Shown here in pieces: positions 31,029 to 52,937 of a stretch of 52,937 bases of DNA. The notes below the pieces were generated by a model. That model had not been told where the DNA came from. It searched no databases and saw only the letters and a program-made list of their open reading frames with translations. This stretch comes from a virus. The stretch spans positions 1 to 52,937 of IMG/VR virus record IMGVR_UViG_3300025652_000098; one strand, written 5' to 3'. Within the stretch, counting starts at the first letter, position 1. Each line of letters opens with the position of its first letter. Made by a program: the position numbers and the translations under genes.

Positions 31029-32597
31029 ATGTCGAACTACGATGATGACGCACGAGATACTCGTGACAAACTGAACTCCTTGTCATCATCCATGTGTATG
31101 GCAAAGTGGTTACAGGTTAGTTTGCATTTGCCACAAGGCAGAACACATAGTTGTTATCATCCGCCAACTCATCCTATTCCACTGGATGAACTCAAGGCAA
31201 ACCCGAACGCTCTTCATAACACCAAGTTCAAGCTAAACGAGCGTAAGCAAATGAAGAACGGCGAACGACCAAGTGGGTGTCAGTACTGCTGGAACGTAGA
31301 AGACGCCAAGGATGCTCCAAAAGAAGGTAGACTTAGTGATAGACACTATCGTTCAAGTGAGTGGTGGGTTAAAGACGCATGGGAAGAGGTAGTTAAACAG
31401 CCCTGGGATCATGATATTAAACCGCGTTACGTTGAGGTAAATTTCAATCAAGCATGTAACCTAAAGTGTAGTTATTGTAGTCCCCACTTGAGCACTGCTT
31501 GGGAAGACGACATTAATGAACACGGCGGCTTCCGATTTGCGGATGGCGGTGGACATAACGATATTGATTACTTGCGTGATACCGGCATGATGCCACTTGA
31601 GGTAGCACGAAAGGATAATCCATATATCGACGCATTCTGGAAATGGTTCCCTGATACATACAAAGACTTGAAAGTATTTCGTATGACCGGTGGTGAGCCG
31701 TTGATGGACAAGAATACATTTAAGGTTCTTGATTACGTCAATGAGAATCCTAACTCATCTATCGATCTGAGTATTACTTCTAATATGTCACCACCAACTC
31801 CTGCTTTAATGGATCGTTTCATCGAAAAGTTAAAAAAGATTGAAGAGGTAAGAGTATGGGAAGATACAACACGTATCAATCCTCACACTGGCAACAACTG
31901 GTATGTATCCCCAGCATGTAAACATTTTTCATTATTTGTGAGTGTTGACGGCGTAGGCAAGCAGGCGGAATATATGCGAGACGGATTAGACTTTGATACA
32001 ATGTACGAGAATTGTCGCAGAGTTCTTAGAGAAACAAACGGTACTGAGATATCATTCATCAATACGTTCAATTTGTTGAGTATTCCAAACCTGCGTGGAT
32101 TCTTAGACATGATACTAGCACTGCGTGAAGAATTTGGATATGAAAATCAGGAAGATATTATTATCACTCCGCCTGATCATAATGGGTTCAAGCATCCGGA
32201 GTTTGTTCGCAAGAAGCGTCAGCGCATATGGTTTGATATTCCTTATCTTCATTTTCCAGACTGGATGACTATTCAGTTGGCTTCACCCGAGATGTTGGAG
32301 ATAATCGAAGATAATATCGAGTATATGAAAGCAAATATTCTACCAGATGATCTATACGGTCGCAAGTATACGGGCTTCAAAAACTACGAGGTACTGAAAC
32401 TGGAACGAGATTTAGCATGGGCTAAAGAAGGACTAAATATAAGTGAGACAGAATTAAGTAACAAGTTAATTCGGTTCTACGAATATTTCACACAATATGA
32501 TAAACGCAGAAATTTAAATTTTCTAGAAACATTTCCAGAGATGGCAGATTTCTGGAATAAAGCCAAAGAAGAGAAAGAGGCAAAATATGGGTCGTAA
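31029..32597 (+). CDS. Radical SAM protein 1 with N-terminal Cys/His (twitch-like) segment
   Basis: A 522-residue protein. The radical SAM motif is C143-x3-C147-x2-C150 (QACNLKCSYC), followed by TGGEP at about 220-224, which binds S-adenosylmethionine. Before the core lies a Cys-bearing segment: MCMAKW, 'GRTHSCYHPP', and 'GERPSGCQYCW', the layout of proteins with an N-terminal 'twitch' auxiliary-cluster region. It is closest in this window to the next gene, with which it shares the CYHPP/CHHPP form. Radical SAM enzymes reduce SAM to a 5'-deoxyadenosyl radical and abstract hydrogen from a substrate; the substrate here is unknown. Confidence 0.85.
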   Translation: MSNYDDDARDTRDKLNSLSSSMCMAKWLQVSLHLPQGRTHSCYHPPTHPIPLDELKANPNALHNTKFKLNERKQMKNGERPSGCQYCWNVEDAKDAPKEGRLSDRHYRSSEWWVKDAWEEVVKQPWDHDIKPRYVEVNFNQACNLKCSYCSPHLSTAWEDDINEHGGFRFADGGGHNDIDYLRDTGMMPLEVARKDNPYIDAFWKWFPDTYKDLKVFRMTGGEPLMDKNTFKVLDYVNENPNSSIDLSITSNMSPPTPALMDRFIEKLKKIEEVRVWEDTTRINPHTGNNWYVSPACKHFSLFVSVDGVGKQAEYMRDGLDFDTMYENCRRVLRETNGTEISFINTFNLLSIPNLRGFLDMILALREEFGYENQEDIIITPPDHNGFKHPEFVRKKRQRIWFDIPYLHFPDWMTIQLASPEMLEIIEDNIEYMKANILPDDLYGRKYTGFKNYEVLKLERDLAWAKEGLNISETELSNKLIRFYEYFTQYDKRRNLNFLETFPEMADFWNKAKEEKEAKYGS

Positions 32598-34137
32598 GCA
32601 CTCTGAAGGCGAAACCCTTCACAAATACAAAGAACGCATGATTGACAGTGTTAGTAAAAGTTACTGTGCCGCTAAATGGTATAACGCAACGATTTGGTTG
32701 GGACATGGACAAACGACTAGTTGCCATCACCCACCCGGACATTGGATTCCTTTGGATGAACTTAAAGACAACTACACTGCTATCCATAATACATCACACA
32801 AGAAAAAAATGCGAAAAATGATGCAAGAAGGCGAGAGACCTGCTGAGTGTGAATACTGTTGGAAAATAGAAGACCTTGGCAAAGATCACATCAGTGACCG
32901 TGTCTTTAAGACTGAAATTTTCAAAGACGAGGACGTAGCAGCTAGCGCAACTGCCGACTGGCAAGAAGATACCATGTTGCGTACACTTGAAATTTCGTTT
33001 GATCGTGCTTGTAACTTAAAATGCAGTTACTGTAACCCCGCATTCTCTACAGCATGGGTCAAGGATATTAATGACTACGGCGCTTATCAAAATATTCAAA
33101 GTGACGGTCGTGGACACTTTATGGACACTGCTCCATGGGCAGAATCGGCAACAAAGAAGGCCGAGGATAATCCTTATATACAAGCGTTTCACAAATGGTG
33201 GGAAAATGGACTTGCTGACAATTTAGAAGAGATCCGTATTACTGGTGGTGAACCTATTATGCACTCCGGAACATGGAAACTATTTGACTGGTTTAAGCAG
33301 AATCCAACTCGCGGCAGACAGATGCGTTTCGCTATCAACTCTAATCTATCGCCAGAAACCCCCAAGGTACTAGACAAGTTGATTGAGAAGTCGTGGCATG
33401 TTCCTAACTTTGAAATTTATACTAGTATGGAAGCAACAAAGGACCAAGCAGAATACATTCGTGATGGTCTTGATTATGGTAAATGGATGGATAGTATTCA
33501 TCGTGTTCTTCGTGAATCTAACGTAGCTAAGTTACACATGATGATGACAATCAATTCGTTGTGCTTAACAACTATCACTGATTTCATGGACGAAATGCTA
33601 GACTTGCGTGAAGAGTATAAGAATAGAGCGCCAACAATGACACTAAACATTCTACGTTTCCCGTCATTTCAAAGTGCTGCTATTTTGCCTGAACATATCA
33701 AGACATTTTATAAAGATAAACTAGAAGCATGGTTTAATAGTGAACGTCCACAAAAAATGTTAACAGAGGGCGAAATCGCAAGTATTCAACGATTGATTGA
33801 TTATATTGATATTGTTAAAACTCCACACAAGAACACAGCGAATCAAGACAAGCTGTACAATGACTTCAAAGCATTCTTTGTACAATATGATATTCGTCGT
33901 AGTAAAAACTTTTCGGCTACTTTTCCTGGTCTATTGTCAGAATGGTTTGATAGTATCGAAGCAGAAACTCCGTCGGTAGAGCAGATTCTTGGTAAAGAAC
34001 TTGTATTCACCAATTCAGATCGTACCGGAGACCCTGCTACTATTGAATCATATGATGGTGGCGACGACGAACATGAAGCTGTTGGCGGCTGGGATACCGA
34101 GACTGATGCCCTTGGTGGCGTAGTGGTAGAGGATTAA
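32587..34137 (+). CDS. Radical SAM protein 2 (same subtype as protein 1)
   Basis: A 516-residue protein. C142-x3-C146-x2-C149 (RACNLKCSYC) and TGGEP near 219-223 form the SAM-binding core. The N-terminal Cys segment matches protein 1: CAAKW, 'GQTTSCHHPPGHWIPLDELK', and 'ECEYCW'. The C-terminal 50 residues are acidic, including GGDDEHEA and TDALGG, and lack a known motif. The gene overlaps protein 1 by 11 nt, and the two are probably co-translated. A recent duplication is plausible from the shared order of motifs, but the proteins are well diverged. Confidence 0.85.
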   Translation: MGRKHSEGETLHKYKERMIDSVSKSYCAAKWYNATIWLGHGQTTSCHHPPGHWIPLDELKDNYTAIHNTSHKKKMRKMMQEGERPAECEYCWKIEDLGKDHISDRVFKTEIFKDEDVAASATADWQEDTMLRTLEISFDRACNLKCSYCNPAFSTAWVKDINDYGAYQNIQSDGRGHFMDTAPWAESATKKAEDNPYIQAFHKWWENGLADNLEEIRITGGEPIMHSGTWKLFDWFKQNPTRGRQMRFAINSNLSPETPKVLDKLIEKSWHVPNFEIYTSMEATKDQAEYIRDGLDYGKWMDSIHRVLRESNVAKLHMMMTINSLCLTTITDFMDEMLDLREEYKNRAPTMTLNILRFPSFQSAAILPEHIKTFYKDKLEAWFNSERPQKMLTEGEIASIQRLIDYIDIVKTPHKNTANQDKLYNDFKAFFVQYDIRRSKNFSATFPGLLSEWFDSIEAETPSVEQILGKELVFTNSDRTGDPATIESYDGGDDEHEAVGGWDTETDALGGVVVED

Positions 34138-34916
34138 TGTATGATACTCTGTGGATAGGCTGTAGTCACAGTTCTGGGTTATACGATTATAAGAATCGTA
34201 TAATCGACTCACGATGTGGTATCGCATCTCGTATCGCGGATCATTATAAGCAATCGTGGAAAATATTATCATTTCCCGGCGATGGCAATCACACCTTTAT
34301 GGAAATTGTAAAGACACTAGATGATCTGGACGAGCTTAAAAAATTTAAGAACATAATAGTGCAGCAAACATATGAGCCTAGGCTTAACTTTTATGAACAG
34401 GCAGCCCACCAGGACCGCATGACAGCAGTAATAGATTTCATACAATCTGATAACCATGAGAAGAACGATGTATTGAATGCCGCCATCCGCGGGCATGATA
34501 AGAAAGTTTTTTCTTTAATTGCCCGTGAATTATTTACCCAACATGGCTGGAAGTTTACTAAGGAAAATATTAACTTTATTGATGTAATACGACACATCGT
34601 AGACAATATAGACCCACGCAATAGTTCATTGCCACATGGTTCTATTTGGACTAAAGCAGCGATAGATTATATTGAACTCGTTTCTGAAAAGAATGGATGT
34701 AATTTTTATACATTTAAATGGGTGGGTAGCTACTGTACACAGTCTGATCCTGGTGTCACTGGATTATTCAAAGGCAATCAAGATTTACTCCAATTAATTA
34801 AAGAAGCAAATCTACAATCTGAGCTTAGTAAATTGGGGTGTCACCCCACAGAAAAAATAATTCAGTTCGCATTAGATATTTTAGTAAGGGAGTTAGACGA
34901 AATTGGGTACAAATAA
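34137..34916 (+). CDS. SGNH/GDSL-like hydrolase candidate
   Basis: A 259-residue protein. The opening 'TLWIGCSHSSG' resembles SGNH block I (the GDS/GCS turn with the nucleophilic Ser), 'FPGDGNHT' could supply the Gly/Asn of blocks II-III, and near the end 'LGCHPTEK' (H236) resembles the catalytic His block. The family removes acyl groups from sugars or lipids. A second protein of this kind (50984) occurs later in the cluster. The start overlaps the preceding TAA (TAATG). The catalytic Asp is not obvious, so this is a tentative call. Confidence 0.5.
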   Translation: MYDTLWIGCSHSSGLYDYKNRIIDSRCGIASRIADHYKQSWKILSFPGDGNHTFMEIVKTLDDLDELKKFKNIIVQQTYEPRLNFYEQAAHQDRMTAVIDFIQSDNHEKNDVLNAAIRGHDKKVFSLIARELFTQHGWKFTKENINFIDVIRHIVDNIDPRNSSLPHGSIWTKAAIDYIELVSEKNGCNFYTFKWVGSYCTQSDPGVTGLFKGNQDLLQLIKEANLQSELSKLGCHPTEKIIQFALDILVRELDEIGYK

Positions 34917-36095: not shown

Positions 36096-37262
36096 ATGAA
36101 AAATTATTGCCCTCACGCATTTAATGCTCTAGAAATAAACACAAGTGGCGTATTTAAGCCGTGCTGTATTAGTTCTAAAACTTTTACCGACGCAGACGGC
36201 AATAAATGCAACGCGGCATCTCATCGTATATCAGAAGTGTACGCAAGCGATAGCAGAAGAGAATGGATTGAAAACTTTGACGATACATTCGCTACGGATT
36301 GTAATCAGTGTTATCAGATTGAAAAAAGCGGCGGTGAAAGTAAACGCCTAAGAGAAATAAAGTGTTGGGAAGGATACTACGGAGGAAAGAGTAAAGTTCC
36401 GATTTTGTCGTCCGATAGTGCGCTAGAGGTGTTGGATTTAAAATTAGGAAACACCTGTAATTTGGCATGTGCAACGTGCCATTCTGATAGTAGCTCAAAG
36501 TGGAATAGCCTATACAAGCAGCATACTGGTGAATTCAATTGGCCCAAACAAGACTGGCAAGACACTGATGAGTTTTGGGAAGACCTGATTACGCAGGTTC
36601 AACGTATCAAAAAGATTGAAATTGCTGGTGGCGAACCTTTTATGAATAAGAAACAGCGAAAGCTGATAAATTATCTTGTTGATAATGATCTAGCAAAAGA
36701 TATTGATATATGCTGGATTACTAACAGTACGTTTTACAATGAAGATATAATCTCTAAATTTAAACATTTTAAATTAGTGCGAGTTATGATAAGTTTAGAC
36801 AACACACATGAGCAATTTGAGTTCATGCGTTACCCGGCTATTTGGAGTGACAGTTATAAAATATTTTCAAAGTTTAATAAACTTGCGAAGGAAGGCAAAA
36901 TTGAAATTGGTATTAGTCATAGTATCAGCGCATTAAATGTTTATCATTTACCAGAGATGTGGGAGTTCGGAAGAGAACACCGCGTGCCAGTGTATAATAA
37001 TATAGTTATGGCTCCATTCTGTATGCAAGACTTGCCTGCTGAGTTTAAGCAAACAGTTAAAGAAAAATTAGAATGTGTAACCGATCCGTCATATCAAACA
37101 AATCCGGCAGCAGGTCCAGATAATTGGATTGTTGAATTTATGATGCGAGAAAAGGGCAATACGAAAAACCCATTGTCTCATTTAGAGTTTGTCAGAAATA
37201 CACGTCCTGGCTTATTCGAAAAGGCATTTCCAGAATTAATCTCAGCATATAATCTCAGATAA
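36096..37262 (+). CDS. Radical SAM protein 4 with N-terminal twitch-like Cys motif
   Basis: A 388-residue protein. The N-terminal segment 'NYCPHAFNALEI' and 'KPCCISS' with a later 'DCNQCY' gives the auxiliary Cys pattern of the 'GxxxxCC' subtype, shared with proteins 6 and 8. The core is C121-x3-C125-x2-C128 (NTCNLACATC) followed by 'EIAGGEPFMN'. The start is five bases after the previous stop; the AGGAG near the end of the previous gene serves as its ribosome-binding site. A 51-base gap without promoter features follows. Confidence 0.85.
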   Translation: MKNYCPHAFNALEINTSGVFKPCCISSKTFTDADGNKCNAASHRISEVYASDSRREWIENFDDTFATDCNQCYQIEKSGGESKRLREIKCWEGYYGGKSKVPILSSDSALEVLDLKLGNTCNLACATCHSDSSSKWNSLYKQHTGEFNWPKQDWQDTDEFWEDLITQVQRIKKIEIAGGEPFMNKKQRKLINYLVDNDLAKDIDICWITNSTFYNEDIISKFKHFKLVRVMISLDNTHEQFEFMRYPAIWSDSYKIFSKFNKLAKEGKIEIGISHSISALNVYHLPEMWEFGREHRVPVYNNIVMAPFCMQDLPAEFKQTVKEKLECVTDPSYQTNPAAGPDNWIVEFMMREKGNTKNPLSHLEFVRNTRPGLFEKAFPELISAYNLR

Positions 37263-37313: not shown

Positions 37314-38537
37314 ATGAGTGATTCCACTGAGTTAAATAATAATACATTTTGTATGCTGCCGTGGATCCATATGCATATATGGCCAACTGGTAGTACCTAT
37401 CCGTGTTGTTTAGCAGAGAATAATTTTGTAATTGGTAACACTAATAAATCCTCTTTCATGGAACTGTGGAACAGTGAGCGTATGCGTGAACTAAGACGGA
37501 ATATGTTAGATAATAAACCAACAAGTGGATGTTCCCGCTGTTATGAACATGAAGATAATGGCGCTCCTTCGATGCGTAAGGATATGAACAGAGGATATGC
37601 ACACCATTATAATAGAACAGAACTTACTCATCCGGACGGCTCATTGGATGAAATATATATGGCATATATGGATATTCGTTTTTCTAATATCTGTAATATG
37701 AAGTGTCGTACATGTGGTCCCGAGTTATCCTCTCTTTGGGTAGATGACGCGGTTAAAATGGGCAGGTATTCCAAAGAAGCACCGCGTATTTTAAAAATCA
37801 AACCAACATTAGAATCGTTTTGGAGTGATGTTGAGCCTTGGATTGACACCGTTGAGTGTATTTACTTTGCTGGTGGCGAGCCACTTATCATGGACGAACA
37901 CTATAAAATTTTAGAGCACCTAATCGACATAGGCAAAACAGATATTCATATCACGTACAACACTAACTTCAGTAAGTTAAAGTATAAGCAAAAAGATGTG
38001 ATTGAACTGTGGAAAAACTTTAAGCACGTTCGTGTTGGAGCCTCCCTTGACGCAATGGGTCCACGAGCAGAGCTTATGCGGGCAGGCACCAAGTGGGATG
38101 AAATTATGCGGAATAGAGAGCGATTGCTAGAAGAAGCACCACATGTACAATTTCAAATTAGTTCTACTGTTAGTGCTTATAATGCGTGGCATGCCGCGGA
38201 TTTTTATTCCGATTGGATCAATAGAGGATGGGTGACACCTGATCAGGTTGATATTAATATTCTGTTATTCCCCGAGTGGCAACGTCCTGAGATTTTGCCG
38301 AAAGCATTTAGAAAAGAAATTCAAGAAAAATTAAAATCTTATTCAGCGCAGTACGATGTTAAGAATGTCGATAAGAATGGGAGAAGTTATTCCGCATTGA
38401 GCGCACTTATAGAATGTCTAAATAAAGACAAGAGTGATCTTATACCAGAGTTTCTTTCCCAGAATGATCTCATGGATCAGGTTAGAACGGAAAAAATGAT
38501 GGATGTATTCCCAGAATTGAGAGTTTTAAATGTCTAA
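37314..38537 (+). CDS. Radical SAM protein 5 with N-terminal twitch-like Cys motif
   Basis: A 407-residue protein. 'TFCMLPWIHMHIWP' followed by 'STYPCCL' and 'GCSRCYEHEDNG' makes it the same subtype as protein 3. The core is C127-x3-C131-x2-C134 (NICNMKCRTC) with 'IYFAGGEP' further on. Both proteins also share 'GNxNxSsxxElWNS'-type spacing between the Cys groups. A purine-rich AAGAGAAATAAAA lies directly before the ATG. The next gene starts 8 nt before its end. Confidence 0.85.
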   Translation: MSDSTELNNNTFCMLPWIHMHIWPTGSTYPCCLAENNFVIGNTNKSSFMELWNSERMRELRRNMLDNKPTSGCSRCYEHEDNGAPSMRKDMNRGYAHHYNRTELTHPDGSLDEIYMAYMDIRFSNICNMKCRTCGPELSSLWVDDAVKMGRYSKEAPRILKIKPTLESFWSDVEPWIDTVECIYFAGGEPLIMDEHYKILEHLIDIGKTDIHITYNTNFSKLKYKQKDVIELWKNFKHVRVGASLDAMGPRAELMRAGTKWDEIMRNRERLLEEAPHVQFQISSTVSAYNAWHAADFYSDWINRGWVTPDQVDINILLFPEWQRPEILPKAFRKEIQEKLKSYSAQYDVKNVDKNGRSYSALSALIECLNKDKSDLIPEFLSQNDLMDQVRTEKMMDVFPELRVLNV

Positions 38538-39789
38538 CACAAATTGTGTACTTGCCTGGACCCACACGAGTTCCGAGCCAGTCGGCACATGTCGTAGTTG
38601 CTGTATCGCACGAGAACATATCACACATGAAGATGGTACTATATACTCTATTGCCGATTCCACATTTAATGAAATCTTAAACAGTACGTATATGCAGGAA
38701 TTGCGTGCCGATATGCGCGAAGGAAATAAGCCTAAGAATTGCACAACGTGCTGGGAAGATGAGTCTCAAGGTAAAGAAAGTAAGCGTGAGTTTTATAATA
38801 ATCTCATTATCAATAGCTACGGAATAGATGTAGATTTCAATGAAGAACCAGAACAGCCGAAAGATTTACAGATTGCTATTAGCAACGTGTGTAATTTAAA
38901 ATGTAGAACGTGTGCCGCGCCATATTCTTCTAAATGGGTAAAAGAATCAAATGATAGAAAAATCAAAGTCTGGACCGCGCCGACCAAATCTGATGTTCAT
39001 AATTTCGAAACAAGTAAGTTTTGGAGTGATATAGATAATTGGTCTAAGAGTGTTAGGCGATTAGAGATTATGGGCGGCGAGCCATTCTACACAAAAGAGT
39101 TTAAGAAGCTAATAGATCATCTAATCGCCAATGGCACTAGCAAAAACATTAATCTTAATCTGAGTACAAATGGTACAATATTCGATGAAGAGTTAATAGA
39201 TAAGATCATAACTAATTTCAATGGTCTTGGGTTTAATATCAGCATTGACGGAATCGGAGATCATTTTGATCTTATTCGGCATGGCAATAATTGGAATAAT
39301 GTTAAATCTAATTTAGATAAGTTCTATGACCTGTATATGAAACAAGAGTGTACGGAGGCGGAAGTTTGGAAATTGTCAAAATTGTCAATTGGTATTACAA
39401 TAACGATTAGTAATATGAATTTTCATTACTTGCGTGATATCCACGCATTCTTTGAAGATAACTGCCCTAAATTTAAGATATGGAATAATTCAGTATACTT
39501 TCCGGAACATTATTCAAGTAATAATATACCAGATCACCTGAAGGCAAAGTATATAGATAGAGTTATTAATCCTGAAAACTACGGGCTGCCCAAGTGGGAT
39601 GATGCCAAATTTAAAGACTGTATACAGCCACTAGTCAATCACGCTACGAAAGAATACAACAAGAACAGCTGGAGTGCATTTGTGAAAGAATCTACCGCCG
39701 CTGTCGCCTATAGACAAGAGAAATTCGAAAATACATTTCCAGAATTATTCGATATAGTTAAGCCGGCATGGACCACCCGCTTGGCTTGA
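38530..39789 (+). CDS. Radical SAM protein 6 with N-terminal twitch-like Cys motif
   Basis: A 419-residue protein. The N-terminus 'NCVLAWTHTSSEPVGTCRSCC' (read with gaps) and 'NCTTCWEDESQG' are the auxiliary Cys sites. The core is C121-x3-C125-x2-C128 (NVCNLKCRTC) followed by 'EIMGGEPF'. 'SQGKESKRE' after the Cys pair resembles 'SGGESKRL' in protein 4 and 'AKGMQSKRL' in protein 8, supporting a shared subfamily. It overlaps protein 5 by 8 nt. It is followed by a 159-base gap that holds the remains of another radical SAM gene. Confidence 0.85.
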   Translation: MSNTNCVLAWTHTSSEPVGTCRSCCIAREHITHEDGTIYSIADSTFNEILNSTYMQELRADMREGNKPKNCTTCWEDESQGKESKREFYNNLIINSYGIDVDFNEEPEQPKDLQIAISNVCNLKCRTCAAPYSSKWVKESNDRKIKVWTAPTKSDVHNFETSKFWSDIDNWSKSVRRLEIMGGEPFYTKEFKKLIDHLIANGTSKNINLNLSTNGTIFDEELIDKIITNFNGLGFNISIDGIGDHFDLIRHGNNWNNVKSNLDKFYDLYMKQECTEAEVWKLSKLSIGITITISNMNFHYLRDIHAFFEDNCPKFKIWNNSVYFPEHYSSNNIPDHLKAKYIDRVINPENYGLPKWDDAKFKDCIQPLVNHATKEYNKNSWSAFVKESTAAVAYRQEKFENTFPELFDIVKPAWTTRLA

Positions 39790-39804: not shown

Positions 39805-39945
39805 TGCTTGGCTATTGGACAATGACAGTCTATTAAATGGTTGACAATCAATAATAAGTATGATAGGCTTAAATTTGATAAATTCATTGATTATAATGAA
39901 ATATTCAGAGTACGATCACGGTGAATCACATATATCAGGAGTATA
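39805..39945 (+). pseudogene. Decayed 3' end of a lost radical SAM gene (protein-3 type)
   Basis: In the frame from 39838, translation reads WLTINNKYDRLKFDKFIDYN, matching 14 of 20 positions of the end of protein 3 (WLTNNHKYDETKFDKFVKYN, from 35962). Upstream, 'CAGTCTATTAAATGG' aligns with 'CAGAGTGCTATCGGGTGG' of protein 3 with one codon missing and an in-frame TGA before it; downstream, a TGA at 39922 breaks the frame while 'CAGGAGT' near the end aligns with the parent's 'ACAGGAGT'. No start or SAM motif remains. That retained AGGAG now precedes the next gene. This is a deletion scar of a former radical SAM copy. Confidence 0.7.
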
Positions 39946-44814: not shown

Positions 44815-46014
44815 ATGAGCACATTTTGTCCACTACTATTTCAACACCTAGCAACGCACCCACACGGCGGCGTTACCCATTGTTGCATTGCTGACCATCG
44901 CAAAGCAATCAGCAGTAGCCGAGATAACACAGAGACAGGTCATCGTTATTATAATTTAAACAATGATACTGTACATGATACTATGAACAGTGAAAGTTAT
45001 CGTACGGCTAGATTGGAAGTGCTTGACGATAAGAAACCAAGAGCATGTATGCGGTGCTATAGTGAAGAAGCTAAAGGTATGCAAAGTAAGCGACTTGAGG
45101 AAATAAAAAACTATCCAGAATACACTCACGATGTGGCACAATCGGTGACTGATGCACAGGGTTACATACATGACGTTCAACTAGAATTTGTAGAACTCCG
45201 ATTAGGTAATACCTGTAATGTTGCATGTCGTACTTGTAATCCAGCAAGTAGTAGTAAATGGCGAAATGATTATGATAAGTTACAAGCAGACTTGAAATTT
45301 GATTTAACAAGCTATGACACAATGCAGGGATTTCGTTGGCCAGAACGTGAGAGCTTCTGGGAGGATTTACTCAAGCATTGTGACAGTGTAAAGACATTTT
45401 ACATCAATGGCGGTGAGCCTACTATGATCAAGCAACACTTTAAGTTTTTAGAACGTTTAGTTGACATGGGAAAAACAGATGTTAAACTATGGTATAACAT
45501 CAATATGACTCGTATGAGTGAAGAGATGATAGAACTATGGCGCAAGTTTGATCATGTAAAGGTATCGTGTAGCATTGATGATTTGGCTGAACGTAATGAG
45601 TACATAAGGCATCCTACCAAGTGGGATGATGTGATGAAAAACTTCCTACGTCTTAAAGATGAAGACTTCGAAGTAGATGTGACTCAAACTGTGAGCTTTA
45701 TGAATTATAGTACACTAGGAGACTTTTATGATTTCTTCCATAATCAACACGGCGTGTGGGTACATCATAACTACGTGTATGATCCTTCCATTCTCAGCCC
45801 AGCAGTAATACCAAAGCAGATGCGTGATAATATACATGCCAGATTGGATAATATATTACCAGCTGAGAAAGTTAATGAGTTGCGGAATATGTTTGGCGGA
45901 CCAGATAATCCAGAACAATGGCGTAAAGCAATGCTTTACACAAAAAGTTTAGATAGAATAAGAAAACAGTCCATTGGAGACTGGTTGCCAGAATTTAAAC
46001 TCGGACAAAACTGA
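44815..46014 (+). CDS. Radical SAM protein 8 with N-terminal twitch-like Cys motif
   Basis: A 399-residue protein. 'TFCPLLFQHLATHPHGGVTH' then CCI and 'ACMRCYSEEAKGMQSKRLEE' are the auxiliary Cys sites, as in proteins 4 and 6. The core is C134-x3-C138-x2-C141 (NTCNVACRTC) followed by 'YINGGEPTM'. The spacing and the 'LRLGNTCN' entry strand are near-identical to protein 4 (LKLGNTCN), so these two are close paralogues despite lying 8.7 kb apart. Confidence 0.85.
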   Translation: MSTFCPLLFQHLATHPHGGVTHCCIADHRKAISSSRDNTETGHRYYNLNNDTVHDTMNSESYRTARLEVLDDKKPRACMRCYSEEAKGMQSKRLEEIKNYPEYTHDVAQSVTDAQGYIHDVQLEFVELRLGNTCNVACRTCNPASSSKWRNDYDKLQADLKFDLTSYDTMQGFRWPERESFWEDLLKHCDSVKTFYINGGEPTMIKQHFKFLERLVDMGKTDVKLWYNINMTRMSEEMIELWRKFDHVKVSCSIDDLAERNEYIRHPTKWDDVMKNFLRLKDEDFEVDVTQTVSFMNYSTLGDFYDFFHNQHGVWVHHNYVYDPSILSPAVIPKQMRDNIHARLDNILPAEKVNELRNMFGGPDNPEQWRKAMLYTKSLDRIRKQSIGDWLPEFKLGQN

Positions 46015-46021
46015 AGAATTT

Positions 46022-47407
46022 ATGATTAGAAACTTATTAATACCATGTAGTGGACCTGGCACCCGCAGTGCTGGTTACACTAAATTTCATAAAACTCTTA
46101 ATCGCATAGGAAACTGTGCGGTAATAGATCACATCATCGCCAGCTATACTGACATTGACACAATATACGTAACTCTGGGCTATCAAGGAGACCTGGTGCG
46201 TGAATACTTAACACATGCTGGTTATACAAACATAGAGTATATTGAAATTGACAACTGGAGCGAAGGTCAGATTGCCAGCTTCAAGCAGATACCAGAGTAT
46301 GTATTTGATAATCCACTGTATTATAACGCATGTGATAATTGGAGTACTAGTGTACCTGTAGTAGATGATAATACATTTTTTACTTGTGCTCCTGAAAACA
46401 GCACACACTATGACACTGACGACGATTTAGTTTACAGTGGTATTAGTTTTATGCGAGACAGCACTGACTATTATCAGGCAATACGCAGTGCTACACACAA
46501 TCGCAATGACTTGTTGTTAATGAAAGAACTCAGCAGTTTACAGCATCTTGCTCTAGAAGATTGGTATGATGTAGGTAACAGAGAAAGTAATTCAAACACC
46601 AAATTAAATTTCAAGGAAGACTTTTCAGTACTTGACAAAACACATCAAGAAGTATATAAAGTAAACAATCGCATTGTTAAACTGTTTGACCTGGCAACTG
46701 ATATTAATGTACACAACAATACATTCCCGCACCCACAGCCTGTACTAAAGACCAGCAATGCGCTAAGTTATCCATATGCCAATGGAACAGTTAATCCATA
46801 CGGAGATGACTTTTTAAAGTTGTTGGATAATCTCAGACGACTTTGGAAGTATAGTTTAACTAACAATGCTCCAGTGTTTACCAGAGAACTATGGCAAGAC
46901 AAGACATGGCAACGATTTGAGATGATGTGTCAGTTAGATGAAAAGTATGCTGATGTAATAACTATTGACGGCGTAGATGTTGATTGTACTAAAGTAGTTG
47001 AATCAATCGATTGGGATATTCTTAACACTGGAACACTAGGACCATGTCATGGTGACTTGACTGTTGATAATATCGTTGTGTCTGACACTAATATATATTA
47101 TATAGACCATCGACAAGGTAAAGTCAATGATGTATTTTATGATGTTTGTAAGTTTTATCAGAGCTTGCATGTACACAGTAATAATCTAGCTAACTTAGTA
47201 GCAGGCAAAGATTTCATTACCCGTGACGATGCTGCTAGACTAGAACTTTTTAGAGACAGTGATGTATATAAAAACAACAAACATAAGATAGAATTAGGAG
47301 TTGGATGTCTGTGGCTGTGTATGGCACCTCTTAATGTTGACTCACAACTCAATCATCAATTGTTTACGTGGGCCATGAAACATTTATATTATCATTCTGC
47401 CAATTAA
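46022..47407 (+). CDS. Bifunctional nucleotidyltransferase and choline/aminoglycoside-kinase-like protein (LicC-LicA type)
   Basis: About 461 residues. The first ~220 residues are a sugar-nucleotidyltransferase-like Rossmann domain: 'LLIPCSGPGTRSAGYTKFHK' gives the 'GxGTR...K' substrate loop, 'YNACDNW' the probable metal site. The last ~220 are a choline kinase/aminoglycoside-phosphotransferase fold: 'PCHGDLTVDNIVV' (Brenner box with the catalytic Asp) and 'YYIDHRQGKV' (metal Asp). The pairing resembles LicC (CTP:phosphocholine cytidylyltransferase) plus LicA (choline kinase), used in bacteria to add phosphocholine to surface glycans, but other phosphoalcohols are possible. The ATG at 46022 fits better than an upstream one inside the radical SAM gene. 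Confidence 0.7.
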   Translation: MIRNLLIPCSGPGTRSAGYTKFHKTLNRIGNCAVIDHIIASYTDIDTIYVTLGYQGDLVREYLTHAGYTNIEYIEIDNWSEGQIASFKQIPEYVFDNPLYYNACDNWSTSVPVVDDNTFFTCAPENSTHYDTDDDLVYSGISFMRDSTDYYQAIRSATHNRNDLLLMKELSSLQHLALEDWYDVGNRESNSNTKLNFKEDFSVLDKTHQEVYKVNNRIVKLFDLATDINVHNNTFPHPQPVLKTSNALSYPYANGTVNPYGDDFLKLLDNLRRLWKYSLTNNAPVFTRELWQDKTWQRFEMMCQLDEKYADVITIDGVDVDCTKVVESIDWDILNTGTLGPCHGDLTVDNIVVSDTNIYYIDHRQGKVNDVFYDVCKFYQSLHVHSNNLANLVAGKDFITRDDAARLELFRDSDVYKNNKHKIELGVGCLWLCMAPLNVDSQLNHQLFTWAMKHLYYHSAN

Positions 47408-47446: not shown

Positions 47447-48964
47447 ATGATAATTTGGGGATGGTCTGGAATGGCACATGATGCTAGTTTAGCAGTATTT
47501 AAAAAAACAAAAAAAGGCTTGGGCATGATGTGCACAACCGAGTTGTTATTTGCCGCACACAGCGAGCGATACAGTCGTATCAAAAATGACAAGAATTTAC
47601 ATCTTGGGCTTATTAACGATGCTCTACAATTCGGCAAGCCTAACAAGATATATTATTACGAAAAGCCATTACTTAAAAAAACACGCCAGGTATGGGCTGG
47701 GCAATATAACCTACTTGGCAAAGAATCACCTACTAGGTATATGCGTAACTTCTATCCAGAAGCACCTAAAAGCTCTACATGTAGTCATCATTTAAGCCAT
47801 GCAGCAGCGGGATATTACACTAGTCCATACAAATCAGCCGCAGTTTTAGTCATTGACAGTATTGGCGAATGGGATACAATGAGTATATGGAATGGTAACC
47901 GCACAGAATTAAAGAAAAAGTGGAGCCAGTATTATCCTCATAGTATCGGAATTTGGTACAGTGCGATGACGCAGCGCATTGGCTTAAAGCCACAAGAACA
48001 CGAATACATCCTCATGGGAATGGCTGCTATAGGTGATGCTAGTAAGTATTATGATCTGATAAAAAGAGACTTCATTAAAAAATTGCCGTCACTTAAAGAT
48101 CCGCGTACATTATTTAAACTGAACTGTCACAGAGGATGTTTAGATTGGCGTCCAGATTTGAACAGTGTACAGGACGTAGCTGACATCGCCGCAGCCACCC
48201 AACTTATATATGAAGAAATATTTGAAGAGTATCTAAAGATTGTTCGTGACATGACGGGACAAGACAGTATTGTGTTGATGGGCGGCTGCGCTCTTAACTG
48301 TGTTGCGAATACTCTTGCTGCTCAATACTTTAAGAATGTATGGATTATGCCAAATCCAGGAGACGCGGGCAGCGCAATTGGATGTGTGTTAGCAAAAGAA
48401 AAAACATTTATTAAATTTGACCACGCATATCTAGGACATGACATCGTTGGTGATTATCCTATAGAGAACGTTATCGGGCAGTTACTTGAAAAGAAAATCA
48501 CAGCAGTCGCATGTGGAAGAGCCGAGTTTGGTCCAAGATCCTTGGGAAATCGCAGTATACTTGCTGACCCTAGAGGACCAGATGTCAAAGACAGAGTTAA
48601 TCAGATTAAACACCGAGAAGCGTTTCGTCCATTTGCTCCTATGATACTCGAAGAACACGCAGATACTTATTTTGATATGCCATCAAATGTATCCAATTCG
48701 CCGTTTATGCAGTTTGTGGTAGAGTGTAAGTATCCGGATAAGTTTCCTGCTATTGTGCATTTTGATAACACCAGTCGAGTACAAACAGTTGGCAAGGACG
48801 ATGGACCTGTTAGAGAATTATTAGAACAATGGTACAAGCGCACAGGTTGCCCGATACTATTGAACACCAGTCTGAATATAAGAAATGAACCGTTGGTGAA
48901 TACACGAGCGGATGCTCATCGATGGAGCGCACAATATGGAGTAGAAATATGTTTACCAGAGTAA
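47447..48964 (+). CDS. Carbamoyltransferase (NodU/CmcH/TobZ family)
   Basis: A 505-residue protein. The N-terminal half has 'SHHLSHAAAGYYTSPY' (the HxxxH metal site of the Kae1-like domain) and 'VLVIDSIGEWDT'; 'VLMGGCALNCVANT' is the phosphate-loop-like segment; the C-terminal half has 'GRAEFGPRSLGNRSILADPR', 'FRPFAPMILEE' and 'NTSLNIRNEPLVNT', all diagnostic of this family. These enzymes move a carbamoyl group from carbamoyl phosphate, via carbamoyl-AMP, to a hydroxyl on a sugar or antibiotic. In NodU the acceptor is a lipochitooligosaccharide. Here it fits decoration of a glycan made by the neighbouring glycosyltransferases. Homologues are known in marine myoviruses. Confidence 0.9.
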   Translation: MIIWGWSGMAHDASLAVFKKTKKGLGMMCTTELLFAAHSERYSRIKNDKNLHLGLINDALQFGKPNKIYYYEKPLLKKTRQVWAGQYNLLGKESPTRYMRNFYPEAPKSSTCSHHLSHAAAGYYTSPYKSAAVLVIDSIGEWDTMSIWNGNRTELKKKWSQYYPHSIGIWYSAMTQRIGLKPQEHEYILMGMAAIGDASKYYDLIKRDFIKKLPSLKDPRTLFKLNCHRGCLDWRPDLNSVQDVADIAAATQLIYEEIFEEYLKIVRDMTGQDSIVLMGGCALNCVANTLAAQYFKNVWIMPNPGDAGSAIGCVLAKEKTFIKFDHAYLGHDIVGDYPIENVIGQLLEKKITAVACGRAEFGPRSLGNRSILADPRGPDVKDRVNQIKHREAFRPFAPMILEEHADTYFDMPSNVSNSPFMQFVVECKYPDKFPAIVHFDNTSRVQTVGKDDGPVRELLEQWYKRTGCPILLNTSLNIRNEPLVNTRADAHRWSAQYGVEICLPE

Positions 48965-48975
48965 AGAATTTTATT

Positions 48976-49065
48976 ATGTGGCCTTGGACACGATACCAAG
49001 AAAAGAAAAGATTTAAGAAGCGTATGGAAGAACTCCGTAAGCGTGACCCATTCATTTATGATTGA
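48976..49065 (+). CDS. 29-residue basic small protein
   Basis: ATG at 48976, TGA at 49063, 29 residues: MWPWTRYQEKK, a basic helical-looking middle (RFKKRMEELRKR) and the end DPFIYD. The 'KRDPFIY' ending is one I associate with short conserved proteins of T4-like marine phages, though I cannot check. It fills the gap after the carbamoyltransferase. Its stop codon lies within the -35 box of the following promoter (TGA shared with TTGACA). No strong Shine-Dalgarno is seen. Confidence 0.55.
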   Translation: MWPWTRYQEKKRFKKRMEELRKRDPFIYD

Positions 49066-49090
49066 CAAGCATAGATGAATGTGTTACAAT
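49062..49090 (+). promoter_or_regulatory. Sigma70-like promoter before the second glycosyltransferase-like gene
   Basis: TTGACA (49062-49067), exactly 17 nt, then TACAAT (49085-49090). Four bases later comes TATAAATA (49094-49101), so this site may be read by both the host sigma factor and the phage late sigma factor. The gene start is at 49114, with GGAG at 49103-49106. Confidence 0.75.
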
Positions 49091-49093: not shown

Positions 49094-49101
49094 TATAAAT
49101 A
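49094..49101 (+). promoter_or_regulatory. TATAAATA late box overlapping the early promoter region
   Basis: An exact T4 late octamer in the context GATTATAAATATGGAG. A late start would fall near 49107, immediately upstream of the ATG at 49114, leaving a leader too short to include the GGAG in full. Confidence 0.4.
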
Positions 49102-49113: not shown

Positions 49114-49830
49114 ATGTTAGATGTGGTACAAATCAGCTACAATGAAGAACAAGCTGATGAAAATTTTGAAATCTTGAAAATGTTTGCGCCCGATGCTAAG
49201 CGTGTCGTAGGCGTAAAAGGTATTCTTAATGCTCACCGAGCAGCCGCGGAGATTGCTGAAACAAAACATTTTTATGTAATTGATGCCGACGCCATCATTG
49301 ACGAATCATTTAACTTTACATTTCGGCCTAATCCCAATAAAAAAGAATACGACCATATTCCGCAAACAGAATGTATATATGTTTGGCGCAGTAGAAATCC
49401 AGTAAATGACTTAGTGTATGGTTATGGCGGTGCAAAGTTATTCCCGCGCAAAGAAATGCTCCAAGCTAAAACATGGAATGTTGATATGACTACATCTATT
49501 GGTTGTGTGTTTGTGCCTAAATTCCAAGTCAGCAATATTACTGGGTTCAATACCAATCCATTCGAAACATGGAAAAGCGCATTTAGAGAATGTACTAAAT
49601 TGTCTAGTAGTGTTATTCCAAATGGAGATAATATGGACAACGAATACAGGTTGGATGTATGGTGTAGCAGAGGCGCTTCTCGTCCTTTTGGCGAGTATTG
49701 TATTATGGGCGCTAATCAAGGAAAAGACTTCGGAAATTATTATAGAAATTCTCCAAAGACACTTGCGAGAATCAATGACTTTGACTGGCTAAAAGAGCAA
49801 TATGATTTGGCTATGTGTGAGGAAGTATGA
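49114..49830 (+). CDS. Glycosyltransferase-like protein, paralogue of the gene at 30042
   Basis: A 238-residue protein. 'LDVVQISYNEEQADENFEIL', 'HFYVIDADAII' (D57-A-D59) and 'VNDLVYGYGGAKLFP' line up with the 30042 protein motif by motif. It is shorter at the C-terminus. The Asp-x-Asp at the end of a beta strand suggests a GT-A fold, but function is unproven. It has its own promoter, and its TGA overlaps the next ATG (ATGA). The two paralogues bracket most of the radical SAM array. Confidence 0.65.
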   Translation: MLDVVQISYNEEQADENFEILKMFAPDAKRVVGVKGILNAHRAAAEIAETKHFYVIDADAIIDESFNFTFRPNPNKKEYDHIPQTECIYVWRSRNPVNDLVYGYGGAKLFPRKEMLQAKTWNVDMTTSIGCVFVPKFQVSNITGFNTNPFETWKSAFRECTKLSSSVIPNGDNMDNEYRLDVWCSRGASRPFGEYCIMGANQGKDFGNYYRNSPKTLARINDFDWLKEQYDLAMCEEV

Positions 49831-50771
49831 TCGAAGACAATCCATCTTTGCCAATCGCTCTACATGAATTGCTAGACCGATACGAAATATTGTATCCGCA
49901 AATAGATGAGCTTGCTGATCTACGCCGGGCATACATCGACAAAGACCTTAGTAGTGTGTTTAGATTATTATCTGGTGATGTAACTGGCGACATTGAAGAA
50001 TTACGCAAGGCAGTTCTAGAACAAAACCTACATAGTATTTTTAGACTGGTTATAGACGAAGATTTGCGTAAATTATTACTAGAGGACAATACCTGGAAAC
50101 TGTGGCCAGTTTTGGACAGATATATTGATACGCAATTTACCGCAGCATTCAAAAGTTTTTATGTCAACAAAAAAGTTATTGACACCGATTGCTTTAGTCG
50201 AGGACAATTAGAAAGCAAGCAGTGGCTGGTTGACGAACTTAGCCAGTATCACTCACTTGATTTAGGCACAGTATTTCTTTGTGCTGGATGGTATGCTACA
50301 TTAGCTACTATGCTGTTTGAAAGCGACATTAAGGTAGACAAAATCCGCAGCTTTGATTTAGATCCTACTTGTGTAGACATTGCTGAAACATTTAACAAGC
50401 CATGGTTTATGAAACAATGGCGCTTCAAAAGTATCACACAAGATATCATGGACGTTGATTACGATGAACACACATGGGAATACTGGAGCAATGCCAATAA
50501 CAGAATGAGTCGACCTATAACAGATACGCCAGATACAATCATTAATACAAGCTGTGAACATATCCCTGACTTTGCTGAATGGTATGCTAAGATTCCAGCT
50601 GGCAAGTTAGTAGTGCTACAAAGCAACAACTTCTTTGAAGTAGAGGAGCATGTTAACTGCGTAAATGATATAGAAGAATTTAAAGCACAAGCACCTATGA
50701 CCAGGGTGTTGTATGATGGCAAACTAGAATTGCCCAAGTATACGAGGTTTATGTTAATTGGAAGAAAGTAG
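49827..50771 (+). CDS. Class I methyltransferase-fold protein
   Basis: A 314-residue protein. Residues 1-110 are helical with several 'DLSSVFRLL'/'NLHSIFRLV' repeats. The C-terminal two-thirds has a Rossmann methyltransferase layout: 'LDLGTVFLCAGWYATLATML' (strand 1 and loop), 'KIRSFDLDPTCVDIAE' (acidic ribose-binding residue after strand 2) and 'DTIINTSCEHI' (motif IV position). The glycine-rich loop is a variant (CAGWYA), so cofactor binding should not be assumed. The start is coupled to the preceding gene. Confidence 0.55.
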   Translation: MIEDNPSLPIALHELLDRYEILYPQIDELADLRRAYIDKDLSSVFRLLSGDVTGDIEELRKAVLEQNLHSIFRLVIDEDLRKLLLEDNTWKLWPVLDRYIDTQFTAAFKSFYVNKKVIDTDCFSRGQLESKQWLVDELSQYHSLDLGTVFLCAGWYATLATMLFESDIKVDKIRSFDLDPTCVDIAETFNKPWFMKQWRFKSITQDIMDVDYDEHTWEYWSNANNRMSRPITDTPDTIINTSCEHIPDFAEWYAKIPAGKLVVLQSNNFFEVEEHVNCVNDIEEFKAQAPMTRVLYDGKLELPKYTRFMLIGRK

Positions 50772-50991
50772 TATAAATGATTTAACATTGCGACAGTTAC
50801 AGACTGAAAGCGCAAGAGCATTAAGTACGATGGAAGCTACAAATAATAATATTTGGAAGTTTAATAAATTAGCACATCACGACAGTCAGAAATGGTATCG
50901 TGCTGTTATTGAATGGTACGTTGATGAATACGGTGGCTTGCCCAGTAAATATGGACCAGGCAAAGATGTAAAGTTGGTACTAGATGAGTAA
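50758..50991 (+). CDS. Small hypothetical protein (TTG start)
   Basis: About 77 residues from a TTG at 50758 that overlaps the previous gene by 14 nt; no ATG lies before residue 25, so the start is uncertain. The sequence is helical in the first half (DLTLRQLQTESARALSTM), then has 'IWKFNKLAHHDSQKWYRAV' and a Gly/Pro-rich end (YGGLPSKYGPGKD). I do not recognise a family. The next gene starts 8 nt before its end, so it is translated within the operon. Confidence 0.5.
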   Translation: MEESSINDLTLRQLQTESARALSTMEATNNNIWKFNKLAHHDSQKWYRAVIEWYVDEYGGLPSKYGPGKDVKLVLDE

Positions 50992-51679
50992 AACAATATT
51001 CGTAATAGGCTGTAGCTATAGTCATCACGATTCGAATTTAGAGCCGGAACAGTCTTGGCCAGCTATATTGGCAGAAACTACCGGATATAAAATTATTAAC
51101 GGGAGTCTTCCTGGCAGCAGCAATGACAGTTATTTTCGTAGACTATTAGAGATGGAATCTCTATTTGGAAAACCTGATCAGGTTATTATTCAGATTACGA
51201 GTCCTAACCGAATAATGAGTTTACGAGGTTTAGGACCAATGTATGAGATTGAGAAAATCAACAAAAACTACTACGCTGACCTTATTCAGTATATTAAACC
51301 GTCTGTGTTCTATATGACAGCAGGCGGAATAACAGACTCTCGCAGACTTGATAATATATGTAGAGATTATGACTTGCCAAAGCGACAGATAGAAAATTGG
51401 TATAGTATCGAGTCAGATGATCAACACGGAAAAATGAAAATGATTAAAGAAATAAAATTGCTAGAATTGTATTGTAATAATGTTGTTACGTTCCAATGGA
51501 ATCGTGATGATTCGGAAATTCTATTGGAACCAATAAATCATTTAGGATCTATACAACATACTATATTGAAGCATTCGTTTCATGATTATGTTGTTTCTAA
51601 ATATGATGATCATTACGATGATCATTTTACATTACTCGGTCACAAGAAGGTTGCAGAAATAATGGAAAACCATGTATAA
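50984..51679 (+). CDS. SGNH/GDSL-like hydrolase candidate
   Basis: A 231-residue protein. 'TIFVIGCSYSHH' gives the block I Ser, 'NGSLPGSSNDSYFRRLLE' resembles blocks II-III (Gly and Asn), and the end 'DDHFTLLGHKKVAEIM' has the Asp-x-His spacing of the catalytic pair plus a following GH helix. It is shorter than the SGNH-like protein at 34137 but of the same plan, and its motifs are more complete. An esterase that trims acetyl or acyl groups from the product of this cluster would fit. Confidence 0.6.
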   Translation: MSKTIFVIGCSYSHHDSNLEPEQSWPAILAETTGYKIINGSLPGSSNDSYFRRLLEMESLFGKPDQVIIQITSPNRIMSLRGLGPMYEIEKINKNYYADLIQYIKPSVFYMTAGGITDSRRLDNICRDYDLPKRQIENWYSIESDDQHGKMKMIKEIKLLELYCNNVVTFQWNRDDSEILLEPINHLGSIQHTILKHSFHDYVVSKYDDHYDDHFTLLGHKKVAEIMENHV

Positions 51680-52754
51680 CTATACTGATATACGAGAAGT
51701 GCACCTAGAAGTAACGCAAAGGTGCCAAGCAGCGTGTCCTATGTGTGACCGCAATGAGAATGGCGGCGCAGACAACAGGCATATTAATAACAGTGAGCTT
51801 AGTTTGGCTGACTGTAAACGTATCTTTCCGCCTGAGTTTATTAAACAGTTAAAGACAATGTACATGTGTGGCAACCTAGGTGATCCTATTGTTGCTAAAG
51901 ATACACTAGATATATTTCGTTACTTTAGACTACACAACCCTACGATGTGGCTAAGTATGAATACTAATGCGGGAGCAAAAGATGAACAATGGTGGAGAAA
52001 GTTGGCTGAAGTTTTTGGACGGATGGGCACTGTTATATTTTCGGTGGACGGTTTGCGTGATACTAATCATCTTTATAGGCAAAATGTCGTGTGGGACAAC
52101 GTGGAGCGAAACATGCGGGCCTTTATTGACGCGGGCGGTAGAGCACGTTGGGATTACATTATATTCGGGCACAACGAACACCAAGTAGCGGAAGCTGAAG
52201 CACTTGCCGCTGAATGGGGATGTGAAAAGTTTCAGAAGAAGAAAAGCGGTAGATTCTTCACTGCCAAGAATACAGGCAAAGACAAGCACCAAGCCCAAAA
52301 CCGTAAAGGTAATGACACGCAACTGATAGAAAAGCCAGCGGCAATAGACAATCAAAACTTAGCACTACTAAAACAAAAAGAGATCGAAAAGTCTTATGGC
52401 AGTATGCGTGAGTATTATGATACATGCGATATTAAATGTAAGGTAATTGAGAATAAAAGTATTTTCATTACGGCAGAGGGCTTATTAATGCCGTGCTGCT
52501 GGACTGCGGGACGCATGTATAAATGGTGGCACAAAGATTATCGTGTAGAACAAATATGGGATTTCATTGATGACGCCGGCGGCAAAGCGGGCATTAGCGT
52601 AATAGATAACACTATCGAATCAGTTATGAATGGAAGAATGCTTGACAAGATGGAACAAAGCTGGTACAAAGACAGCATCAGTAATGGCAAACTAGGCGTA
52701 TGTGCGCAGAAATGCGGAAGCGAGTTTGATCCATTTGGCGAACAGTTTAAGTAA
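51672..52754 (+). CDS. Radical SAM protein 9, SPASM type
   Basis: A 360-residue protein of different architecture from proteins 1-8: the core is at the N-terminus (C18-x3-C22-x2-C25, 'RCQAACPMC'), and the auxiliary Cys groups are at the C-terminus ('TCDIKCKVI', 'LLMPCCW', 'GVCAQKC'), as in SPASM-domain enzymes such as peptide-maturing or sulfatase-maturing types. 'MCGNLGDP' takes the place of the GGEP motif, as in some SPASM subfamilies, and 'FSVDGLRDTNHLYR' follows the expected order. It overlaps the SGNH-like gene by 8 nt. Confidence 0.85.
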   Translation: MYNYTDIREVHLEVTQRCQAACPMCDRNENGGADNRHINNSELSLADCKRIFPPEFIKQLKTMYMCGNLGDPIVAKDTLDIFRYFRLHNPTMWLSMNTNAGAKDEQWWRKLAEVFGRMGTVIFSVDGLRDTNHLYRQNVVWDNVERNMRAFIDAGGRARWDYIIFGHNEHQVAEAEALAAEWGCEKFQKKKSGRFFTAKNTGKDKHQAQNRKGNDTQLIEKPAAIDNQNLALLKQKEIEKSYGSMREYYDTCDIKCKVIENKSIFITAEGLLMPCCWTAGRMYKWWHKDYRVEQIWDFIDDAGGKAGISVIDNTIESVMNGRMLDKMEQSWYKDSISNGKLGVCAQKCGSEFDPFGEQFK

Positions 52755-52937
52755 TGTATACCAACGAGACTGTTAACATATTAGAAGTAGAACTAACTAC
52801 CTACTGTAACGCTCACTGTGGCGCATGTGATAGAAATATCCAGGGAGGAGCCTTTAATCCTAAACTACCATTGCGACACATGACATACGACACTTGGCGC
52901 AAATTAATCACCTCTGAAAATTTATCGCATGTGAGTA
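52754..52937 (+). CDS. Radical SAM protein 10, N-terminal part
   Basis: The first 61 codons of another radical SAM gene; it runs off the window. The core is C18-x3-C22-x2-C25 (YCNAHCGAC), at the same position as in protein 9, and 'DRNIQGGAFN' matches 'DRNENGGADN' there, so it is a tandem paralogue of protein 9. The ATG overlaps the previous stop (TAATG). Any C-terminal SPASM region lies outside the window. Confidence 0.85.
   Translation, partial: MYTNETVNILEVELTTYCNAHCGACDRNIQGGAFNPKLPLRHMTYDTWRKLITSENLSHVS

Follow-up and report, generated by a model that had tools for sequence, protein, structure and literature searches.

A glycosyltransferase core and an array of N-twitch radical SAM enzymes form a candidate glycan-tailoring island in a T4-like phage fragment

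Why would a phage carry a long run of radical S-adenosylmethionine (SAM) enzymes among glycosyltransferase and other modifying genes? The question is raised by IMG/VR virus record IMGVR_UViG_3300025652_000098, a linear fragment of 52.9 kb that was analysed up to its end (positions 1 to 52,937, termed the window). The initial annotation placed ten radical SAM proteins from position 31029 onwards. The array proved to comprise eight full-length members of one family (termed W1-W8), a ninth enzyme of another type and a tenth that runs off the window end, giving at least nine and probably ten radical SAM enzymes in the window. The island to which they belong is larger than first described and begins at about 26872, not 31029. 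We propose that this island builds a glycan and radically tailors it, most likely on the envelope of the infected host, a proposal to which we give about an even chance of being correct.

Genes for a T4-like tail and baseplate lie in the window, including some that look gp25- and gp6-like by eye, and a 3432-residue protein at 12776-23074 matches the virion structural protein phrog_10938 in a PHROGs comparison. The tail genes are followed by a single-strand gene block that is 97% coding, in which a promoter precedes the conserved gene F3, two F1 glycosyltransferases, F8, the glycosyltransferase F2a, W1-W8 interspersed with other tailoring genes, and finally radical SAM no. 9 and no. 10.

W1-W8 were assigned with the NCBIfam model NF033640 (N_Twi_rSAM, twitch domain-containing radical SAM protein), which has a curated cut-off of 170 bits. 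All eight cover the whole model at 233-408 bits, with E-values of 1e-69 to 1e-122, so that chance is not an issue for the assignment. Pfam Radical_SAM was found in each, in W2 slightly under its cut-off (28.4 versus 29.5 bits).

31029..32597, + strand: W1, N-twitch radical SAM of the CMAKW...CYHPP type; NF033640 315 bits; orthologues up to 86% identical
32587..34137, + strand: W2, N-twitch radical SAM of the CAAKW...CHHPP type; NF033640 315 bits
34903..36090, + strand: W3, N-twitch radical SAM; NF033640 332 bits; Pfam SPASM at residues 9-78
36096..37262, + strand: W4, N-twitch radical SAM; NF033640 233 bits
37314..38537, + strand: W5, N-twitch radical SAM; NF033640 408 bits; AlphaFold model with predicted local distance difference test score (pLDDT) 95 and predicted template modelling score 0.91
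38530..39789, + strand: W6, N-twitch radical SAM; NF033640 298 bits
41109..42515, + strand: W7, N-twitch radical SAM; NF033640 319 bits
44815..46014, + strand: W8, N-twitch radical SAM; NF033640 349 bits
51672..52754, + strand: radical SAM no. 9, family F4, with an NLGDP motif and no N-terminal twitch; Pfam Radical_SAM 35 bits (cut-off 29.5)
52754..52937, + strand: radical SAM no. 10, CNAHCGAC, cut by the window end; 61 residues matching family F4

In W5 numbering, W1-W8 share four invariant twitch cysteines N-terminal to the barrel (C13, C31, C73 and C76), the radical SAM cysteines C127, C131 and C134 (CX3CX2C), the SAM motif G187-G188-E189-P190, and G26, N218, S244 and R256. The twitch cysteines, the radical SAM cysteines and GGE are also invariant in a 56-sequence alignment of relatives, while the proline of GGEP is not. 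The possibility that some of the eight are degenerate pseudo-enzymes was rejected, as all cluster ligands are retained. The initial annotation had pointed to an N-terminal cysteine-rich segment in eight proteins, and this segment is a real twitch-like domain that is predicted to bind a cluster: in a profile comparison, N_Twi profile positions 5-79 match the twitch domain at the C-terminus of BtrN (E 1e-7), the radical SAM dehydrogenase of butirosin biosynthesis. The match is to a C-terminal domain in BtrN and lies N-terminally in N_Twi_rSAM, and the usual domain order is thus swapped. The twitch is shared with BtrN; the reaction need not be. Foldseek searches with the W5 model recovered the radical SAM core only (anSME, Tes, CteB, BlsE, viperin and DesII, with template modelling scores of at most 0.40 by query length), and therefore no substrate follows from the W5 fold.

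Radical SAM no. 9 scores only 41 bits against NF033640, far from the cut-off of 170, and is therefore not a member of N_Twi_rSAM. Its best NCBIfam match, TIGR04317, is far under cut-off, and the earlier description of no. 9 as a SPASM-type enzyme is not borne out by any Pfam SPASM match. The fragment of no. 10 resembles the F4 family of no. 9, not N_Twi_rSAM.

W1-W8 are only 18-36% identical to one another. In a tree of 96 proteins (FastTree, with several long branches and uncertain deeper groupings) the window copies do not cluster in the manner of recent duplicates; each groups instead with orthologues from other phages, at best identities of 86, 81, 78 and 61% for the four window enzymes printed in detail. 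Recent duplication within the phage, which the initial annotation had raised as a question for phylogeny, is thereby ruled out, each paralogue falling in an old orthogroup common to phages. From the grouping and the identities it follows that the eight enzymes were distinct before these phages diverged and have been maintained separately, which argues for eight distinct jobs. Of the motif subtypes proposed earlier, the pair W1 and W2 and the set W3, W5 and W7 are supported by the tree, W4 and W6 are joined weakly, and W8, which had been grouped with them, is placed elsewhere.

The part of the island upstream of the array is a conserved glycosyltransferase core behind a promoter.

26872..26900, + strand: sigma-70-type promoter TTGACA-N17-TATAGT, an exact match in the gap 26864-26929 after the last tail gene, 28 nucleotides before F3
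26929..27276, + strand: F3, first island gene, 115 residues, a conserved family
27270..28178, + strand: F1a, GT8-like glycosyltransferase, from a profile of relatives
28180..29106, + strand: F1b, GT8-like glycosyltransferase, from the F1 profile, with a DxD in the motif YVDNDT found by eye
29051..30064, + strand: F8, conserved 337-residue protein inside the core, kept between the glycosyltransferases in relatives
30042..31025, + strand: F2a, GT-A fold glycosyltransferase by AlphaFold (pLDDT 88) and Foldseek
49114..49830, + strand: F2b, another GT-A family protein, sharing 32% identity with F2a in the alignment

The glycosyltransferase-like neighbours of the initial annotation are thus supported as GT8-like by profile and as GT-A by fold. 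A profile of 24 F1 relatives matches glycogenin-1 (E 3e-7), while F1a alone has no Pfam match as a single sequence. The best Foldseek matches of the F2a model are SunS, TarP and WrtF, and D65 and D67 of its DxD motif are invariant in the F2 alignment. F8 has no match in Pfam and F3 none in PHROGs; members of the F3 family are present in 13 of the 20 contigs compared and in the majority of another 80. Among 73 distinct relatives, 33 have a strict TTGACA-type motif ahead of F3, usually 19-28 nucleotides from the start, compared with 1.6% of control windows, and this conservation suggests that the island is probably its own transcription unit. Two further candidates of the same type lie within the island, and the second is closely followed by a T4-like late motif, TATAAATA, at 49094-49101. 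The late motif itself is not enriched (4 occurrences versus 6.6 expected).

39841..39869, + strand: internal sigma-70-type promoter candidate TTGACA-N17-TAGGCT, in the gap 39790-39949
49062-49090, + strand: sigma-70-type promoter candidate TTGACA-N17-TACAAT

Gene families compared over 20 contigs follow a fixed order of tail genes, F3, two F1, F8 and F2, and then radical SAM genes. A further 80 viral contigs, found with F2, have the same core behind tail genes, with F1 upstream in 75 and F3 in 68, and the initial annotation's radical SAM and glycosyltransferase genes hence form one conserved neighbourhood in independent contigs. The gene directly after F2 is an N_Twi_rSAM in 29 of the 80 and a second F2 in 41, and in 43 the retrieved flanks include one or more N_Twi_rSAM genes. 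Since the core is constant and N_Twi_rSAM is not always present, the array is an optional extension of the glycosyltransferase core. Downstream content and order vary strongly among relatives, although sub-blocks recur. The largest related records, several of them near-identical copies, hold 11-14 genes over the N_Twi cut-off and 17-21 matches in all, and the arrays of relatives add a uridine diphosphate (UDP)-glucose dehydrogenase, a nicotinamide adenine dinucleotide epimerase and more SGNH candidates.

A search of 50,697 phage records gave no match to W1 or F2, and W5 matched Vibrio phages only, at about 20-23% identity. In the cultured and sequenced Vibrio phage K566 the cluster consists of an N_Twi_rSAM gene, a GT8 gene, a further pair of radical SAM genes and a weak match to GT4, with another radical SAM gene and GT8 gene on the opposite strand. 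About 1 kb past the radical SAM/GT8 cluster lies a gene for LpxC (L217:5122-5928, E 1.3e-40), the enzyme of the committed step in lipid A synthesis. This neighbour is the most direct hint towards lipopolysaccharide. Pfam did not bear out the label PagP that the depositor had assigned beside this cluster; the next gene is that for LpxC.

The same enzymes occur on bacterial chromosomes. Of 144 Bdellovibrionota genomes sampled, 41 contain N_Twi_rSAM, with as many as 20 copies in one genome, and nine contain F2, all nine being among the 41 (hypergeometric p 6e-6, not corrected for relatedness). For at least 11 of the 20 Bdellovibrionota F2 genes, an N_Twi_rSAM gene is no more than 5 kb away, and no tail genes were recognised around the chromosomal clusters. 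On a 2.04-Mb contig (L129), genes in the order N_Twi_rSAM-F9-F4-F2 lie between neighbours that encode GT2 enzymes, a flavin amine-oxidase-like protein and a multi-membrane-pass protein, and a 2.66-Mb contig (L133) has relatives of W7, W8 and W2. On a Bacteriovoracaceae contig (L051), relatives of W2, W7, W8, W5 and W1 are 37-54% identical to the window enzymes. Large chromosomal N_Twi_rSAM arrays were seen at loci L094, L106 and L129-L133, and a literature search on such arrays in Bdellovibrionota turned up nothing relevant. In two bacterial genomes, two N_Twi_rSAM units are apparently fused in one open reading frame (ORF; L049, 1106 residues at about 9977-13297, and G105:C28:4820-7672).

Interspersed with and following the array are genes that would alter single sugars or substituents, together with small conserved proteins.

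34137..34916, + strand: F12, SGNH-like hydrolase/acyltransferase candidate; IGCSHS motif seen by eye; conserved in 6 contigs; no Pfam match
39949..40557, + strand: F19, 2-oxoglutarate (2OG)-Fe(II) oxygenase-like; PF13640 24.8 bits, slightly under the cut-off of 27; conserved in 4 contigs
40478..41098, + strand: F20, conserved protein in 4 contigs; no Pfam match; start uncertain because it overlaps F19
42508..44802, + strand: F21, 764 residues, with a SAM methyltransferase domain in the middle; residues 382-462 match Methyltransf_25 over cut-off
45974..47407, + strand: fusion of a nucleotidyltransferase-like and an APH/LicA-like kinase domain; APH under cut-off
47447..48964, + strand: F22, NodU/TobZ-type carbamoyltransferase; Carbam_trans_C 174 bits, Carbam_trans_N 125 bits
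48949..49065, + strand: conserved 38-residue micro-protein ending in RDPFIYD; homologues in 7 loci
49827..50771, + strand: F9, class I SAM methyltransferase-like; motif by eye; no curated family match
50758..50991, + strand: conserved protein of 67-77 residues directly behind F9; 67-79% identical in 3 other loci (L041, L036 and L107); no Pfam match
50984..51679, + strand: SGNH-like hydrolase/acyltransferase candidate; motif IGCSYS by eye; no curated family match

Among the neighbours that the initial annotation had already named, the carbamoyltransferase is certain and the methyltransferase domain holds; the 2OG oxygenase and the LicA-like kinase remain under Pfam cut-offs in the window, whereas a Bdellovibrionota homologue of the kinase fusion (L133:3406-4860, 21% identical), near the W7, W8 and W2 orthologues, reaches 41.7 bits for APH. 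The SGNH identity rests on motifs recognised by eye and on one relative slightly under cut-off. Chromosomal homologues of F9 are 42-44% identical and adjoin N_Twi_rSAM genes. The 38-residue micro-protein ends in DPFIY or DPHIY with a charged residue in the window and in L036, L031, L041, L048, L107 and L132, one of the seven loci being a Bdellovibrionota chromosome; it adjoins the carbamoyltransferase in several, and a search of plasmids gave none. Upstream of the island, a putative tail protein (24653-26863) has a C-terminal part with a repeat rich in Gly and Tyr, GYSGGYSGGYSGGYSGGYGYG.

The data show gene content and order, conservation, intact cluster ligands, the glycosyltransferase assignments and the linkage in other genomes; the glycan substrate, the reactions, the host-envelope acceptor and the benefit we infer as follows. 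The core glycosyltransferases (two GT8-like and one GT-A) would lay down a short sugar chain, on which the N-twitch radical SAM enzymes and the SGNH-like, methyl-, carbamoyl- and kinase/nucleotidyl-transferring enzymes would alter single sugars or substituents. Each paralogue would cleave SAM at its CX3CX2C cluster, while the twitch cluster may bind substrate or pass an electron, and epimerised, dehydrogenated or deoxygenated sugars are possible products. The finished glycan would be placed on the host envelope, in the manner of lipopolysaccharide, via the export machinery of the host, and the altered envelope may change the receptor seen by competing phages. Of the two pathways suggested at the outset, for a decorated glycan or for a modified peptide, the glycan is thus the best reading and the peptide the less likely one.

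Several observations weigh against a host-envelope glycan. None of the 23 island ORFs encodes a protein with hydrophobic membrane segments such as a flippase, polymerase or ligase, and among 485 ORFs surrounding relatives' arrays just 5 have two or more such segments; export must therefore rely on the host. Many relatives have the core without a radical SAM gene nearby. The core adjoins tail genes, a position that is also compatible with decoration of the virion, and the promoter motif is also present at 4 of the 13 structural genes that have a gap, which also weakens the early expression that might be read from it. The array on L051 lies beside genes resembling obg/rpmA, without glycosyltransferases, and in Paenibacillus sp. 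(L057) a single N_Twi_rSAM lies among acyl-carrier-protein, ketosynthase-like and adenosine monophosphate-ligase-like genes recognised by eye, a fatty-acid- or polyketide-like setting that suggests a different substrate class. To our knowledge, no substrate is known for any N_Twi_rSAM.

The chief rival, which we consider improbable though not negligible, is that the glycan is placed in the cytosol on the phage's own tail fibre or adhesin and is then tailored by the radical SAM and other enzymes. The position of the core directly behind tail genes in most of the 80 contigs fits this, as do the soluble nature of all window-island enzymes, the existence of minimal versions (the core alone, followed by a strand switch) without a full surface-glycan pathway, and the relationship of GT8 to glycogenin, which glycosylates protein. 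However, the GT-A and radical SAM families are also neighbours in Bdellovibrionota, in chromosomal clusters without recognised tail genes; the island is preceded by a promoter of its own; and the lpxC gene near the K566 cluster, along with the sugar-nucleotide and carbamoyl genes, suggests an envelope glycan. A hypervariable landing zone, which gathers cassettes with unrelated roles and hence forms no single pathway, would account for the strong differences in downstream content and order among relatives, and a hypervariable island with cassette insertions has been published (PMC7029224). We judge this unlikely, as eight orthogroups are kept across diverged phages without duplication or loss of ligands, sub-blocks recur, and the linkage of F2 to radical SAM genes in bacteria is non-random.

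Two other substrates were weighed. The idea that a ribosomal peptide or protein is the target of the radical SAM enzymes, in the manner of ribosomally synthesized and post-translationally modified peptides, with the glycosyltransferases adding sugars, draws on the many SPASM and twitch radical SAM enzymes that act on peptides, including some of the nearest solved structures (SkfB, CteB and anSME), and on the two small conserved proteins in the island. These small proteins, however, have no precursor-like variable core (the 38-residue one is most constant at its C-terminus) and no cysteine in the window copies, they occur in few arrays, and a systematic search for small ORFs gave no other shared candidate, which makes a peptide substrate decidedly unlikely. 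Hypermodification of DNA, by which the enzymes would build a complex sugar-bearing base in phage DNA, we regard as very improbable. A 2OG oxygenase-like gene is present, and such systems in phages are known to include radical SAM and glycosyltransferase genes, but bacterial chromosomes share the enzymes, and the links to UDP-glucose dehydrogenase and lpxC point to glycans. No Tet/JBP oxygenase was found in eight related records, but control genomes were equally silent and the search was uninformative.

Marine phage contigs have up to 14 copies of N_Twi_rSAM and Bdellovibrionota genomes up to 20. If the glycan reading is true, this would be a large source of unfamiliar sugar chemistry and a concrete route for ocean phages to alter host surfaces. 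The orthogroups, the promoter and the bacterial counterparts make it testable, offering defined enzymes, a small version near lpxC in K566 and a minimal core without radical SAM genes. More tentatively, and with a probability clearly below even, we suggest that marine T4-like phages and Bdellovibrionota may share a form of glycan tailoring in which N-twitch radical SAM enzymes, acting as a combinatorial set whose members differ in site or reaction, would rewrite the chain laid down by the core into radical-modified glycans known from no organism.

How does the island compare with known systems? The initial annotation knew of no described phage pathway with this many radical SAM enzymes, a statement that does not stand. 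The T4-like environmental genome TARA_ERS488813_N000010, likewise a marine T4-like phage with many such genes, has 12 (PMC5332604, 2017); in the available portion of that paper they are treated as Fe-S proteins, without analysis of family, order or neighbours. Cyanophage lipopolysaccharide gene clusters were known earlier (PMC3037559, PMC2984593). Those of P-SSM2, S-SM2 and S-SSM7 are likewise large clusters of glycan genes, with a changed host surface as their presumed effect, but they lie elsewhere in the genome (near hli03 or phoH), and radical SAM arrays go unmentioned in the available portion of their description (PMC3037559). With phage O-antigen or lipopolysaccharide clusters the window island shares glycosyltransferases, while a flippase, polymerase and ligase were not found in it. 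A literature search found no functional study of the N_Twi_rSAM family, and the 8-14 diverged members per phage contig exceed what the name of NF033640 conveys. A further parallel is the host-recognition cluster of pelagimyophages, a hypervariable island that lies behind a giant baseplate gene and holds tail genes, glycosyltransferases and radical SAM cassettes, for which modification of the O-chain by glycosyltransferases was proposed (PMC7029224, 2020). Clusters of that type follow a VrlC-like giant baseplate protein in T4-like phages and are bounded by the neck gene gp14; the window ends within the island. The array itself is hence no first. In contrast to the pelagimyophage cluster, the window island has been resolved down to the order of its core, its promoter, the orthogroups of its radical SAM enzymes and their counterparts in bacteria, and it is this anatomy, the old orthogroups, the promoter and the bacterial links that are new.

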